Part shown: piece after piece, positions 3,821 to 8,153 of the stretch
Position numbering within the stretch: position 1 is the stretch's first letter
Layout: each line of letters begins with the position of its first letter
Source: Chryseobacterium sp. 36-9
GTDB lineage: Bacteria > Bacteroidota > Bacteroidia > Flavobacteriales > Weeksellaceae
Direction: 5' to 3'
DNA: 64,000 nt
Assembly: GCA_001898785.1 (NCBI GenBank)
Contig: MKVE01000028.1
Location: 1,017 to 65,016, forward strand
Made by a program: the position numbers and the translations under genes
The notes under the pieces: generated by a model
Told to the model about the DNA's origin: nothing
What the model saw: only the letters and a program-made list of their open reading frames with translations
Databases searched by the model: none

Positions 3821-4446
3821 CTAACTGGTTTTTATTTTCGAAATGTCATTTTTCAAACTACTGAACATCTCTCTTATTTCTGACATCGGTGTATGTTCAA
3901 AACTCAATTCTTTGGTGTTGACACTTCCCGCAAATTCCCATATTTCAAGAACATCAGTCCATTCTATTTCATATGGTTTATAAAAAACATTATCGGATAT
4001 TACCGATGTTCCTTTTTATTCTGTTTTTCAAAACGTTTGTAAACAATTCCTTCCTTAGTAATGAAAATGTATGTTTTGCCTATCTTCAATTGTTCTTTAC
4101 TTTCTACATATTTCCCCAAAATAAATGAACCATCATTATAAGGAGGCATCGAGTCTTCTTCAACAGGGAATGCACGGTATTTTCCATTTCTCAAAAACGG
4201 TAAAGACATATATTGCAAACTGTCAATAAATTCCACATGACTGTAACCGCTGATGTATCCCATTTTGCTTTTTGGGGAACAAACTCAATTTTGTTTTCTC
4301 CTATACTATCAACTTTAATCGGAAGGACAATTCTGTTATCTGGTAAGTTTATAATATCCTCAATTAGATATTTCCTTAATATCCACAAGAACAGAAAATT
4401 GGGTTGCCAAGAAATAAAATGCAATGATAATAACTTTGAAAGTCAT
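3821..4446 (-). pseudogene. Decayed XRE/S24 (LexA-like) transcriptional regulator
   Basis: Joining three reading frames recovers most of an S24/LexA-type regulator of the flavobacterial XRE class. The linker NLPDNRIVLPIKVDS is followed by FVPQKA, then MGYISGYSHVEFIDS, then the catalytic-fold segment RAFPVEEDSMPPYNDG (with the conserved DSM), VYKRFEKQNK, and a C-terminal tail ending at 3821. Frame changes fall near 4395, at about 4262 and at about 4014. The last two lie in or next to A-rich runs and are each restored by one added base. The N-terminal helix-turn-helix is missing: the recognisable part starts around 4420 and the next gene begins at 4454. In this family the HTH binds operators and the S24 domain senses or dimerises. 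As it stands it cannot make the full regulator. Confidence 0.75.
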
Positions 4447-4453
4447 ATTTATT

Positions 4454-5707
4454 TTACCATTTAATTCTTGGGATTATTTTCTTAACCTCTCTCTCAATAT
4501 TACCCCCTAAGTTTTTAATTTCATTTCCAGTATTACGTATAATTTTTACAGCATCATTATTGTATCCTGGTCCTCGGGTAATATCATTAACTGCATTATT
4601 AAAATTTTTCACAATATCGTTTGTCGGTCCAAAATGTTGCCCTAATTCATTACCTAGGGAGTTTAGAGTTTTTACAATTGTATTATTTGGACCAAAGCAA
4701 CCATCCTGACCACCGACTCCGTGGGTAAGACATTTATTTAATTCTCTAGCTGTTAGTTGTCCACCAGCACAACCAGCAAATACGTAAGGCTGTCCTCCCG
4801 ATGTTGCCGCACACTGCACAGCTATTGTCGCCTCGGTATTGAGATTAAATTTACTAGCCCCATAACACATTGCAGTATTGAAGAAATTTACTTGTCCTGT
4901 TTGAGCCTGCTGTTTTACACATAAAACTAATTGTTGCAATTCCGGATTTGAAACTTCCCCAGCTAGACATAATGGGTATTTTGTATAATCTAAACCAAAC
5001 TCTTTATAACAGTTCATTAATTTTTGTGAATATTGTTTTTCATTAGAACCTCCCATTACACCAACCATACAAAAAGTTTGCTCTTCTACTGTCGAAGAAT
5101 TTTTCACACATTGATAAACCGCGTTTTCCTTTTCTCCTACCATACTTCTAATCATACAATCTCCAAACTTATTTTGATCCAACTGGTTATTAAACATCAC
5201 CGATTGGTTATAGCAATCAACAGCGACTTGTTCTGAGGTCATCATAATATCACCGTAAGGTCTATTTTGATTTATTAAGATTGGGGGAATAGGATTAATG
5301 TTCTCACTAGCAGTAACAACACCTATATTTGGATTTATCTGAAGAGGTTGAAAATTAATCATTGGTGGTGGTGGTGGTAAGAAATCATACCTTCCAATAA
5401 TTCTACCACCAATGGTATAATCTATTTCAATAAGATTACCTGAATAATCTAAAAAATAAGCATTCCTATAAGGATTAACCGCTGGTAATCTTAAGAACAT
5501 TATACCAGAAGGATCTCGTTGAACAACTCCTCGATTCATTGGGTTACCTTCCTGAAAAGATATACTATTATCGAGTAACACAAAGGTCTGACCTCTCATT
5601 TGATCAAAGATTCGTCCTACAATATTTTGTGAAAAAAAAGAATTTGAAGTTAAAAATACGATTAAGACTCCAAAACAAAGGCAAAATTTTTTAGTTTTCG
5701 TTTTCAT
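4454..5707 (-). CDS. Cys-rich secreted protein with FGPNN-IVK repeats
   Basis: This 417-aa protein has an N-terminal signal peptide (about residues 1-26, cleaved near FFSQN). Residues 30-110 are followed by a proline run (FLPPPPPM). Residues about 160-335 hold many regularly spaced cysteines in helical units (patterns such as GDCMIRSM, YQCVK, MNCYKEFG, PLCLAGE), suggesting repeated disulfide-bonded helical hairpins. The C-terminal 85 residues hold three imperfect repeats built on FGPNNTIVK, FGPTNDIVK and YNNDAVK. No T9SS sorting domain is seen. The function is unknown. An even number of Cys, periplasmic or surface location and island context fit an adhesin- or effector-like protein, but that is inference. 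Confidence 0.6.
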   Translation of the reverse strand: MKTKTKKFCLCFGVLIVFLTSNSFFSQNIVGRIFDQMRGQTFVLLDNSISFQEGNPMNRGVVQRDPSGIMFLRLPAVNPYRNAYFLDYSGNLIEIDYTIGGRIIGRYDFLPPPPPMINFQPLQINPNIGVVTASENINPIPPILINQNRPYGDIMMTSEQVAVDCYNQSVMFNNQLDQNKFGDCMIRSMVGEKENAVYQCVKNSSTVEEQTFCMVGVMGGSNEKQYSQKLMNCYKEFGLDYTKYPLCLAGEVSNPELQQLVLCVKQQAQTGQVNFFNTAMCYGASKFNLNTEATIAVQCAATSGGQPYVFAGCAGGQLTARELNKCLTHGVGGQDGCFGPNNTIVKTLNSLGNELGQHFGPTNDIVKNFNNAVNDITRGPGYNNDAVKIIRNTGNEIKNLGGNIEREVKKIIPRIKW

Positions 5708-5925: not shown

Positions 5926-5933
5926 TATATTTG
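5926..5933 (+). promoter_or_regulatory. Candidate -7 box upstream of the palindromic element
   Basis: TATATTTG matches TAnnTTTG exactly. Transcription would begin close to 5940, about 18 nt before the palindrome. No TTG is found at the usual -33 spacing, which lowers confidence. Confidence 0.35.
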
Positions 5934-5957
5934 CTTTAGAAAAATATAAAATAACGT

Positions 5958-6123
5958 AAAGCGTAAGCTATCGTATTGGTACAAGAAAACCGCTAATCTT
6001 CTTAGATAACCAAATTCGATAGGCTTGCGCCCATGTCGTATATCGGCGTGGGCTGTAAGTTCTATCTGGTTATCGGGTTCTTAGCGGTACCTCTTGTACG
6101 GATAGTCTTCAGTTCCACGCTTT
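5958..6123 (+). ncRNA. 166-bp nested palindrome: candidate structured RNA or recombination site
   Basis: Nearly the whole element folds on itself. From outside in, 5958-5964 pairs with 6117-6123, 5968-5972 with 6101-6105, 5979-5986 with 6092-6099, 5989-5996 with 6081-6088, 6005-6012 with 6067-6074, 6018-6022 with 6062-6066 and 6029-6035 with 6047-6053 (one G-T), then a small loop. All arms are nested and separated by short asymmetric bulges. A T-rich tract follows at 6121-6132 and a perfect -7 box precedes it. A competing 7-bp pairing links 6110-6116 with 6147-6153. This could be an ncRNA or long 5' leader, or a folded DNA site like those of integron cassettes, although consensus attC end boxes were not found. 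Confidence 0.5.
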
Positions 6124-6190
6124 CTCTTTTTTAACCTTCACTATTTGGAACTGAGGTGTATTATAAACTGATACCAGCATCGTGAGAACA

Positions 6191-6586
6191 ATGAAATCTA
6201 TTTCCCGGTTTTCAATGGTTCTAATTCTTCTTTTATCCTGTTGTTCTTCAACAGTGATAAGAACTTATGACCATTACAAACATTTACCTTGTGATAAACA
6301 AGGTTTTGAAAATAATCTAATAGTTTCTACACCAACAAAAATCGAGATAGATTCGAGATTAAAGATAGCTGTCATTAATTCTGGTAGTGATTTAATTGAC
6401 ACTCTTCTTATTAAATCTTCTTTTAGAAATATTCAATTTAAAAATAAACCAAAGACCTATCAATCTTTTTTGGTTTACAGTATATCTCAAAAGGTTAGTG
6501 GGACGTTAGAACTGAATGATCAAGAATGTCTTATTATTCTTAAAGATTCTAAATGGTATTTGAACCAGTCGATTCAATCAAAATAA
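6191..6586 (+). CDS. Small lipoprotein of unknown function
   Basis: This 131-aa protein starts at ATG 6191 (a GTG at 6182 would add three residues). It has a short charged N-terminus, a hydrophobic core and the lipobox LLSC, so it is probably an outer-membrane or periplasmic lipoprotein. The mature part is about 110 residues and beta-rich, with no family I recognise. It is the first gene after the palindromic element and lies 55 bp before the repeat-containing surface protein on the same strand, so they may be expressed together. Confidence 0.55.
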   Translation: MKSISRFSMVLILLLSCCSSTVIRTYDHYKHLPCDKQGFENNLIVSTPTKIEIDSRLKIAVINSGSDLIDTLLIKSSFRNIQFKNKPKTYQSFLVYSISQKVSGTLELNDQECLIILKDSKWYLNQSIQSK

Positions 6587-6641: not shown

Positions 6642-8153
6642 ATGAAAAAACTAAAAATCATTATGAAAACTAAATCAGTAGTATTCTCAATTATCCTATT
6701 GTTCTCATCCTTCTCAGTTCTATCTGCGCAACTCTCTTTCGCCACGGTATGGAACACCAATATCAATAATGATAACTCAAAACAAATAAAGTTCTTGACC
6801 CAAGGGTCTTTTCAATATTTTTATGTTGATATGACCAACTCAAATACATCTCAAATATTTCAAAGTACCGGTGGCGATGTTGTAATTGACTTTCCAAAAT
6901 CGGGATTATATAAATTGAATATTGTTACTAATTCTCAATTCAAATTCAATTCAAAAGTGACTGTTCCAAATGATCCTGAAGCAAAGAAACTCATATCCGT
7001 TACCCAATGGGGAGATGTGAATTGGAGTCCAGATTTAAGTCAGATGTTTTGGTATTGTTCTAATTTAAATATTGGGGCAACGGATATTCCAAATTTTCAA
7101 AACGTAACCAATATGTCTTCAATGTTTGCAGAGTGTTCCAATCTTAAAACCATTCCTTACATTAATAATTGGAATGTCGGAAATGTAACCAATATGTCCT
7201 ATATGTTCTTTAAGAACTCTTTATTTGATGAGTCTCTGAGTAATTGGAACGTTGGTAATGTGACCAATATGGAAGCAATGTTATCCTTTGCATCAGCATT
7301 CAATCAGAATTTGGGAAATTGGAATGTAAGTAAGGTTACTACAATGAGAGGGATGTTTCGTGACGCATCTTCTTTTAACCAACCGTTAGAAAATTGGAAT
7401 GTTGAAAATGTTGTTGATATGTACGTTATGTTTTACAATGCAAAATCATTTAATCAACCACTAAACAATTGGGACGTCAGTAAGGTCACCAATATGGGAG
7501 GTATGTTTGTCAACGCCAATAAATTCAATCAACCGATCGGAAATTGGAATGTCGGAAATGTTACATCGATGGAACATCTATTTTCGGGAGCAACTTTATT
7601 TAATCAGAATATTGGAAACTGGAATTTAAAAAGTATAAATCTTATCAGTAATTATGATGGTTTTAATTCCCTTCATAATTTTTTAGATTCATCGGGAATG
7701 GACTGTCAGAATTATATGAAGACTTTAAAAGGATGGTCGGAGAACACAAACACTCCAAATAACCTCAATTTAGGTGCTGGTAGCGTTAGATATGGTCTCG
7801 ATGGTAAAACGTACCGAGATTTATTAGTAAACACAAAAGGTTGGAATATCACAGGAGATTCTTATTCTACAAATTGTAATTCGTCTCTTGCGGTTTCAAA
7901 TGTTTCAAAAGATGAAGTTCAAATTTATCCAAATCCTTTTAGAGATAAATTATATATTGATCTTGGATGGTTGGATAACAAGACTTCCAAGATCAAGATT
8001 TATAACTCTATTGGTTCTCTAGTTTTTTACAGAAATATCAACTCTAGGAATGTTTCTGAAATCAATCTCAATCATAATTTTCCTGTTGGTGTTTACAATG
8101 TTATAGTTAGTTCAGAAAAACGTTCCAGATCTTTCAAGGTGATTAAAAAGTAA
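6642..8153 (+). CDS. BspA/DUF285-type repeat surface protein with T9SS sorting domain
   Basis: This 503-aa secreted protein has a signal peptide (cleaved around LSAQ; the ATG at 6663 is an alternative start). Residues about 125-325 hold tandem 25-residue repeats of the form NW-NV-xx-VTNM-xx-MF-xx-A-xx-FNQ-x-L, in about seven copies. This is the DUF285 / Mycoplasma-type lipoprotein repeat, a solenoid related to BspA leucine-rich repeats. The C-terminus (about 425-503) is a type A T9SS sorting domain with the IYPNPF motif and a final KVIKK, so the protein is probably exported by the gliding/T9SS machinery and anchored at the surface. Such repeats usually mediate adhesion. It is the only clear surface cargo inside the island. 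Confidence 0.85.
   Translation: MKKLKIIMKTKSVVFSIILLFSSFSVLSAQLSFATVWNTNINNDNSKQIKFLTQGSFQYFYVDMTNSNTSQIFQSTGGDVVIDFPKSGLYKLNIVTNSQFKFNSKVTVPNDPEAKKLISVTQWGDVNWSPDLSQMFWYCSNLNIGATDIPNFQNVTNMSSMFAECSNLKTIPYINNWNVGNVTNMSYMFFKNSLFDESLSNWNVGNVTNMEAMLSFASAFNQNLGNWNVSKVTTMRGMFRDASSFNQPLENWNVENVVDMYVMFYNAKSFNQPLNNWDVSKVTNMGGMFVNANKFNQPIGNWNVGNVTSMEHLFSGATLFNQNIGNWNLKSINLISNYDGFNSLHNFLDSSGMDCQNYMKTLKGWSENTNTPNNLNLGAGSVRYGLDGKTYRDLLVNTKGWNITGDSYSTNCNSSLAVSNVSKDEVQIYPNPFRDKLYIDLGWLDNKTSKIKIYNSIGSLVFYRNINSRNVSEINLNHNFPVGVYNVIVSSEKRSRSFKVIKK

Follow-up and report, generated by a model that had tools for sequence, protein, structure and literature searches.

A long imperfect palindrome lies directly upstream of a small gene in the window, that is, the whole 64,000-nt stretch of DNA analysed here (G000:C28:1017-65016, from a genome of 3,478,283 bases), and raises the question of whether it acts as a structured RNA or as a DNA site. 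The original prediction, made from the letters alone, described a long hairpin preceded by a -7 box, followed by a T tract and accompanied by a competing 7-bp pairing. It proposed either a new structured RNA or leader, or a folded-strand recombination site marking a cassette boundary, and suggested looking for homologues with covariation and for recurrence at gene boundaries.

The predicted RNA fold of window positions 5926-6153 has an energy of -78.7 kcal/mol (z -7.6); 200 dinucleotide shuffles averaged -46.4 (sd 4.2), and none reached the native value. Folding of 5953-6136 gave nested arms running from 5958 to 6123, and the long imperfect hairpin was thus confirmed with its arms as predicted. 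The flanking signals were also found in place: the -7 box TATATTTG at 5926-5933 on the plus strand, 24 bp 5' of the hairpin, and the T-rich tract TTTCTCTTTTTT at 6121-6132, followed by GGAACTG at 6147-6153. Transcription of this copy would start at about 5938-5942. When the downstream bases were included, the best fold of 5926-6153 lost the outermost helix and gained the pairing AGTTCCA/TGGAACT; since the best fold swaps one for the other, the two truly compete, as had been proposed. What the original prediction missed is that each hairpin arm also folds on itself, and that these self-pairings are conserved. The whole structured leader element spans 5953-6126 on the plus strand and scores 203.9 bits with the covariance model R1, which was built from this element itself and six relatives, and 172.9 bits with the model R2.

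DNA searches detected a second copy in the same genome, copies in 6 of the 23 genomes of the genus (its own included) and copies in at least 86 of 296 genomes at family rank. R1 was built from seven copies and R2 from 60 copies, and the E-values of both models are rough. R1 matched at least 60 of 395 genomes at order rank (15 of 108 genera) and R2 at least 65 of 395 genomes at phylum rank (34 of 170 genera); these genome counts are lower bounds, because two candidates per genome were scored at family rank and seven at order and phylum ranks. The own genome gave six R2 matches when 150 candidates were scored, and in the phylum set, with seven candidates scored per genome, the copies per genome reached at least seven. 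A pattern scan over contigs of 84,980 bacterial and archaeal species returned at least 119 stretches, and all 119 listed carry, as we read the names, Bacteroidota lineages in their record titles, among them Bacteroides, Prevotella, Flavobacterium and Chryseobacterium. All 119 loci (80/80 and 39/39) match R2, a result that is partly circular since the selecting pattern was made from the family itself. The element belongs to a structured RNA family that many Bacteroidota share.

To place this family among known RNAs, we searched Rfam (4227 models, including 6S-Flavo and Flavo-1). The window gave no match at the gathering score; with a relaxed threshold, 401 bases of the site gave nothing beyond a weak minus-strand match to U6 (E 1.3), and 16 loci with relatives gave three tRNA matches only at the gathering score. 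By this test the element lies outside the Rfam families. 6S-Flavo (RF01685) and Flavo-1 (RF01705), which are named in PMC2864571, are like the element structured RNAs of Bacteroidota, and neither matches the window or the 16 relative loci at the gathering score. The same paper lists the epsC motif (RF01735) and JUMPstart (RF01707), and PMC9723704, which has a section on 5' cis-regulatory RNAs, includes a table of 64 structured leaders. No description of the element was found among the titles and abstract openings covered. A blastn search of plasmid and phage collections gave no match. Five viral contigs (L223-L227) contain the pattern and all five match R2; one cassette gene was sought in viral contigs with no match.

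Covariation was assessed in two alignments, both fitted to the model. In the first, comprising the 60 copies of set 1 (without L044, where an insertion interrupts the hairpin), 91.7% of the cells pair, compared with 72.0% after shuffling and 35-43% with a slid partner, and changes on both sides were observed in 59 of the 64 long-hairpin pairs. In the phylum-wide alignment (92 rows, 87 of them distinct, at least seven of the 92 repeating copies used for R2), the corresponding values are 86.9% against 67.1%, with changes on both sides in 56 of 61 pairs. The pattern-picked loci favour the family, and the alignments lean on the model. Homologues with covariation were thus found. The long hairpin has conserved internal-loop bases, and compensated changes are free to occur in its helices 5 and 8, so there is little fixed sequence beyond the loops L1 and L2 and the apex.

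The wobble pairs indicate which strand is under selection. On the plus strand, G-T cells outnumber A-C cells by 429 to 78 in the 60-copy alignment and by 666 to 177 in the phylum-wide alignment, as would be expected of a plus strand that folds as RNA; it also folds lower than the minus strand in 92 of 99 copies. Together with the covariation, this shows an element selected as sense-strand RNA. The same pattern bears on the second proposal of the original prediction. A folded-DNA recombination site or small mobile element marking cassette ends, of the integron attC or fold-back MITE type, would agree with the neighbours that differ independently at the element edges in several locus pairs, and with the row of elements and genes in L187 and the tandem copies in L204 described below. 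The bias that points to the transcribed strand is indirect evidence against it, the promoter box also speaks against it, and loci with a like promoter and gene occur without the element; also, only six copies were found in its own genome (150 candidates scored). We consider such a site very unlikely. The attC sites and the BOX, ERIC and Correia repeats are imperfect palindromes at gene boundaries, some of them transcribed in 5' UTRs; the element differs from them in its sense-strand RNA bias, its few copies in its own genome and its phylum-wide covariation. For an attC site the bottom DNA strand should be the functional one, whereas here, on indirect evidence, it is the top strand that carries the bias and folds lower. 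An origin of transfer or a single-stranded-DNA promoter was dropped for the same sense-strand bias.

The conserved self-pairings of the arms suggest a second set of folds. We cut the copies into strand 1, L1, strand 2, strand 3, L2 and strand 4, which in the window copy, all on the plus strand, correspond to 5961-5979 (strand 1), 5985-6001 (the L1 core, GAAAAC...UCUUC), 6010-6030 (strand 2), 6045-6069 (strand 3), 6075-6093 (the L2 core, GGGU...GUACCUC) and 6099-6120 (strand 4); L1 and L2 are about 33 nt each. For each copy, the energy of pairing between two of its own segments was compared with the energies obtained when one of them was paired with its counterparts in 25 other copies. A gap filter kept 124 of the 152 rows in the alignments A6 and A9, rows repeating a locus name being counted once, and these were collapsed to 69 non-redundant copies; at least seven rows of A9 (the window, L123, L143, L146, L228, L229 and L231) had been used in building R2. 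The own pairing was better than the cross mean for 1·2 in 68/69 copies, for 2·3 in 68/69, for 3·4 in 67/69 and for L1·L2 in 69/69, and the other combinations were not favoured (1·4 in 36/69, 1·3 and 2·4 in 27/69 each). It was the best of the 26 in 18/69 copies for 1·2, 24/69 for 2·3, 20/69 for 3·4 and 69/69 for L1·L2. A coarser cut of 99 copies was concordant, with 97, 97 and 95 for 1·2, 2·3 and 3·4 against 57, 31 and 44 for the other combinations. The excess of G-U is strong for 3·4 (331 against 9 A-C) and weaker for 1·2 (181 against 95). Thus strand 2 can pair with strand 1, forming a 5' hairpin, or with strand 3, and strand 3 with strand 2 (predicted antiterminator) or strand 4 (predicted terminator), while L1 pairs with L2 in the long hairpin.

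The 3·4 hairpin, of which strand 4 is the 3' side, is followed by at least four T within 8 bases in 99 of the 101 copies examined, and in the window copy the U-tract TTTCTCTTTTTT (6121-6132) begins directly 3' of strand 4. A generic sigma-70 and terminator scan had omitted this hairpin, as it limits loops to 3-8 bases and is ill-suited to the phylum and to long loops. In the 101-copy folding set, from which copies with an off-centre predicted apex were dropped, the two half hairpins have mean energies of -18.6 kcal/mol (z -2.3 against mononucleotide shuffles) and -29.1 kcal/mol (z -4.2), and the long hairpin, at a mean of -61.5 kcal/mol, is below the sum of the halves in all 101 copies. Being less stable together than the long hairpin, the half hairpins can matter mainly during RNA synthesis, and halves that fold alone while the long hairpin is lower still are what a kinetic switch requires; because the long hairpin would win at equilibrium, the predicted terminator would depend on kinetics. 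Taken alone, the U-tract would also suit a plain intrinsic terminator or a repeat that regulates nothing. Such a view is hardly credible for an element of about 170 nt with phylum-wide covariation, placed between a promoter box and a gene, and it is contradicted by the covarying, mutually exclusive pairings.

We examined the surroundings of the copies for signals of a leader. The motif TAnnTTTG, which we take to be the Bacteroidota -7 box consensus, lies within 70 nt upstream of 62 of 99 non-redundant copies compared with 10 of 388 nearby control windows, which adds to the positional case for TATATTTG. The distance to the element is 17-30 nt in 32 of the 99, and in 29 the box occurs only at 42-67 nt; the remaining copies, 37 of 99, have no TAnnTTTG within 70 nt, which counts against an attenuator. 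In the 99-copy sets near-identical copies were collapsed, and the box count, like the GGRACTR count below, also omits copies near contig ends; the partial matches L088, L090 and L092 were excluded from the 99-copy pairing, box and GGRACTR counts and from the 101-copy folding counts.

The first downstream ORF (at least 60 aa) is co-directional with the element in 58 of 60 copies, and the recurrence at gene boundaries that had been proposed as a check was thus observed. For a further 120 copies (set 2), a downstream ORF was found in 102, co-directional in 87 and on the opposite strand in 15, the latter counting against an attenuator. Set 2 comprises 120 of 130 R2-matching loci; L123, L143, L146, L228, L229 and L231 were left out as repeating set 1, L178 and L188 as cut by the locus end, L205 as lying near it, and L124 by oversight. 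The second copies in L187 and L204 were uncounted, and the sets overlap partly: L201 of set 2 apparently coincides with L090 of set 1, their contigs being equal in length. Among the 145 co-directional cases the ORF starts 30-80 nt past the element in 63 and more than 200 nt away in 37, the latter again counting against an attenuator. A short divergent ORF 95-175 nt upstream was found in 58 of the 167 copies having an upstream ORF. In the window copy the cassette gene occupies 6191-6586 on the plus strand and encodes 131 aa from ATG (134 aa from a GTG start at 6182); its product has a lipoprotein-like N-terminus as judged by eye, gave no match in a Pfam search and is also found in another genome (G003) in a different context.

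A promoter box and a terminator-like end would together yield a discrete RNA of about 190 nt, and the main product might then be a short, terminated, trans-acting small RNA with the downstream gene as a passenger. This is quite unlikely in our view, given the co-directional ORF in 58 of 60 copies, the freely variable helices 5 and 8, the scarcity of fixed sequence beyond L1, L2 and the apex, and one gene family that keeps the element in 6/6 genomes.

Taken together, exclusive pairings under selection, a hairpin with a U-tract and a position between a promoter and a co-directional gene were found for the element, and the exclusive pairings 1·2, 2·3 and 3·4 match the set of an attenuator. The best reading of the element is that of a transcription attenuator, a 5' leader RNA acting in cis whatever gene lies behind it, and we assign this reading a probability of roughly 0.6 on the sequence data. 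Besides the points already marked, several results count against it: for 1·2, 2·3 and 3·4 the own pairing is the best of the 26 in a minority of copies, the G-U excess of 1·2 is the weaker one, the terminator would need kinetics in its favour, strand 4 pairs only modestly with the downstream region over all copies, a second gene family mostly does without the element, and the downstream genes have no common pathway. The proposal of a new structured RNA or leader is in this way supported by the covariation, the G-U bias, the promoter box, the U-tract, the co-directional gene and the lack of an Rfam match. Termination or read-through as its outcome, the direction of switching, a signal behind it and the recombination discussed below are our inferences.

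The attenuator would work as follows. In copies like that of the window, polymerase would start about 10-20 nt before the element, and strand 1 would pair first with strand 2, giving the 5' hairpin. As long as this hairpin holds, 1·2 would keep strand 2 away from strand 3, leaving strand 3 free for strand 4, and the 3·4 hairpin with the U-tract would stop transcription before the gene. If strand 3 instead takes the place of strand 1 on strand 2, the RNA would close into the long hairpin (2·3 together with L1·L2), strand 4 would be left without a strong partner and polymerase would enter the gene. A cellular signal, such as a ligand, a protein or the state of the polymerase, would tip the choice between the folds.

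The competing strand downstream may add to this scheme. Of 99 non-redundant copies, 14, the window copy among them, have GGRACTR at +13 to +33, compared with a mean of 0.41 in mononucleotide shuffles, and some of these copies have matching changes in strand 4, with AGTCCC accompanying GGGACT in two. When strand 4 was tested against the downstream 40 nt in all copies, the own pairing was better in 60-61 of 99 and in the control in 40 of 99, a modest difference. The GGAACTG of the window (6147-6153, plus strand), complementary to strand 4, is a possible extra switch in the read-through RNA, as pairing of strand 4 with a downstream GGRACTR could act only after read-through.

Attenuators of the trp type have four strands with exclusive 1·2, 2·3 and 3·4 pairings and a U-tract, with a promoter before and a gene behind, and the element is alike in all of these. 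It differs in that L1 and L2 pair, making the antiterminator one long hairpin, in being optional and bound to no pathway, and in the leader peptide: an ATG frame of at least 8 codons between the inferred start and position 12 of the element was found in only 2 of the 62 boxed copies, in a test that covered ATG starts only. With such a frame ahead of strand 1 in so few copies, ribosome-driven switching appears unlikely, and leader-peptide attenuation was dropped. Terminator riboswitches are likewise 5' leaders with exclusive folds, and the element resembles them in this and in having conserved internal-loop bases in one of its folds; it differs in that the downstream genes suggest no ligand and that no Rfam model matches.

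A leader that acts on the polymerase itself must also be weighed. In this case the long hairpin would bind polymerase in cis as a processive antiterminator or polymerase-binding leader, much as put, EAR or 6S RNA do, letting it read through silencing or termination in acquired genes. The place directly after the promoter and before unrelated genes, the mobile-element and restriction-modification neighbours and the conserved internal-loop bases of the long hairpin would all be in keeping with this. It would need neither the U-tract nor 1·2 and 3·4, two pairings that covary no less strongly than 2·3, and there is no Rfam match; we regard it as unlikely on this analysis, if worth keeping in view. 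The put RNA and EAR are leaders that alter elongation, some of them on accessory or acquired genes. We know of no covarying terminator and anti-antiterminator pairings in them; the element has both, and has no Rfam match.

The genes behind the element were compared in 60 copies. Their proteins are unrelated: a type IX sorting domain is present in seven, a TonB-dependent-receptor plug in six and a receiver domain in three, and the other downstream Pfam families have one to six members each, among the 25 of 27 families listed. The upstream neighbours of the same 60 copies include HTH_3 proteins (7), N6 methylases (4), Eco57I methylases (4), resolvases (4) and phage-type integrases (3), as raw counts among the families listed. 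Since the downstream genes have no common pathway, no ligand can be guessed from them, and since they are unrelated, the signal for the attenuator would probably be a general one. A retron or other RNA linked to reverse transcriptase was dropped, as no reverse transcriptase family is among the Pfam matches listed (25 of 27 downstream and 25 of 53 upstream families), and a defence RNA was dropped because PADLOC matches fell mainly on upstream neighbours (raw counts, first 25 families listed). Among single loci, the element precedes what we take to be a dihydrofolate reductase-like gene at L128 and L134, one from a Bacteroides and one from a Parabacteroides.

The coupling between element and gene differs between gene families. 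One cassette gene has homologues, at identities as low as 27%, in 6 of the 246 genomes searched, and the element lies directly upstream in 6/6. In a second, multi-copy gene family the element was present at only 7 of the 30 loci examined; the gene of this family therefore does not need it, and a constant coupling of gene and element was rejected. Loci with a like operator, promoter and gene exist with the element (L246, L250 and L251) and without it (L247, L248, L268 and L254), and in those without it the gene lies a few tens of nt past the promoter. Judged from such loci, the element behaves as an optional leader between promoter and gene. Two different palindromes precede the promoter, one around CGGACTTAAATCCG in L246, L247, L251 and L254 and one around AACACATATATGTGTT in L248, L250 and L268, each with its own kind of regulator gene; they are probable operators. 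In L246, L250 and L251 the conserved block continues for about 140 nt beyond the U-tract and includes a small hairpin, CAATGGA...TCCATTG.

The DNA shared between loci often stops at the element edges, and left and right neighbours differ independently in several pairs. The stretch common to the window and G003 begins 28 nt ahead of the element and stops close to where the gene ends, and in the pairs L046/L047, L054/L062 and L076/L082 the left flank and element are common and divergence sets in at 0 to +7. The idea of a cassette boundary stands in so far as neighbours do change independently at the edges; it is weakened in that homologous recombination between shared leaders would explain this most simply. 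The shared leader would then be a site of neighbour exchange, preceding many unrelated accessory genes and being exchanged together with its gene.

As a tentative extension, the family might constitute one RNA switch answering to a global signal throughout the phylum, spread by recombination before unrelated accessory genes, with the shared leader providing the homology for cassette swaps. If so, newly acquired cassettes would share one expression condition, and the accessory genes so controlled would include surface receptors, secreted proteins, regulators, and toxin-antitoxin-like and nuclease genes. The attenuator reading would give Bacteroidota a general regulatory part. Its three covarying exclusive pairings, in an RNA unmatched in Rfam, define a concrete switch that is open to test and has no evident leader peptide. 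Standing ahead of unrelated accessory genes, it raises the question of which common signal decides the expression of acquired genes.

Several loci show further features. In L187 (about 355-2520; Bacteroidales), an element, a PDDEXK_2 nuclease gene, a 3'-truncated element, two small genes, presumably a toxin-antitoxin-like pair, and another element follow each other in an array-like row of cassettes. L204:2092-2503 contains tandem elements about 250 nt apart, each with a TAnnTTTG before it as judged by eye, ahead of a gene that we assume to be response-regulator-like. In L044 (about 3897-5555; G192), the loop region of the element is split by about 1.66 kb carrying a transposase, presumably IS110-like, and a small HTH-like gene. 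The loci L094, L095 and L096, all from G170, repeat about 4.4 kb of upstream DNA at 91-94% identity with a methylase gene inside, which we take to be Dam-like; the likeness of L096 to L094 and L095 stops 75-82 nt past the element, and different genes follow. The gene at L164:5010-5555 represents a family of 181-aa proteins, unmatched in Pfam, for which a single genome can give as many as eight matches; the ORF nearest upstream is divergent at 25 of the 30 loci, and several of these ORFs look HTH-like by eye. In the window, the cassette gene is followed at 6642-8153 by a gene whose product combines three DUF285 stretches with a type IX sorting tail.
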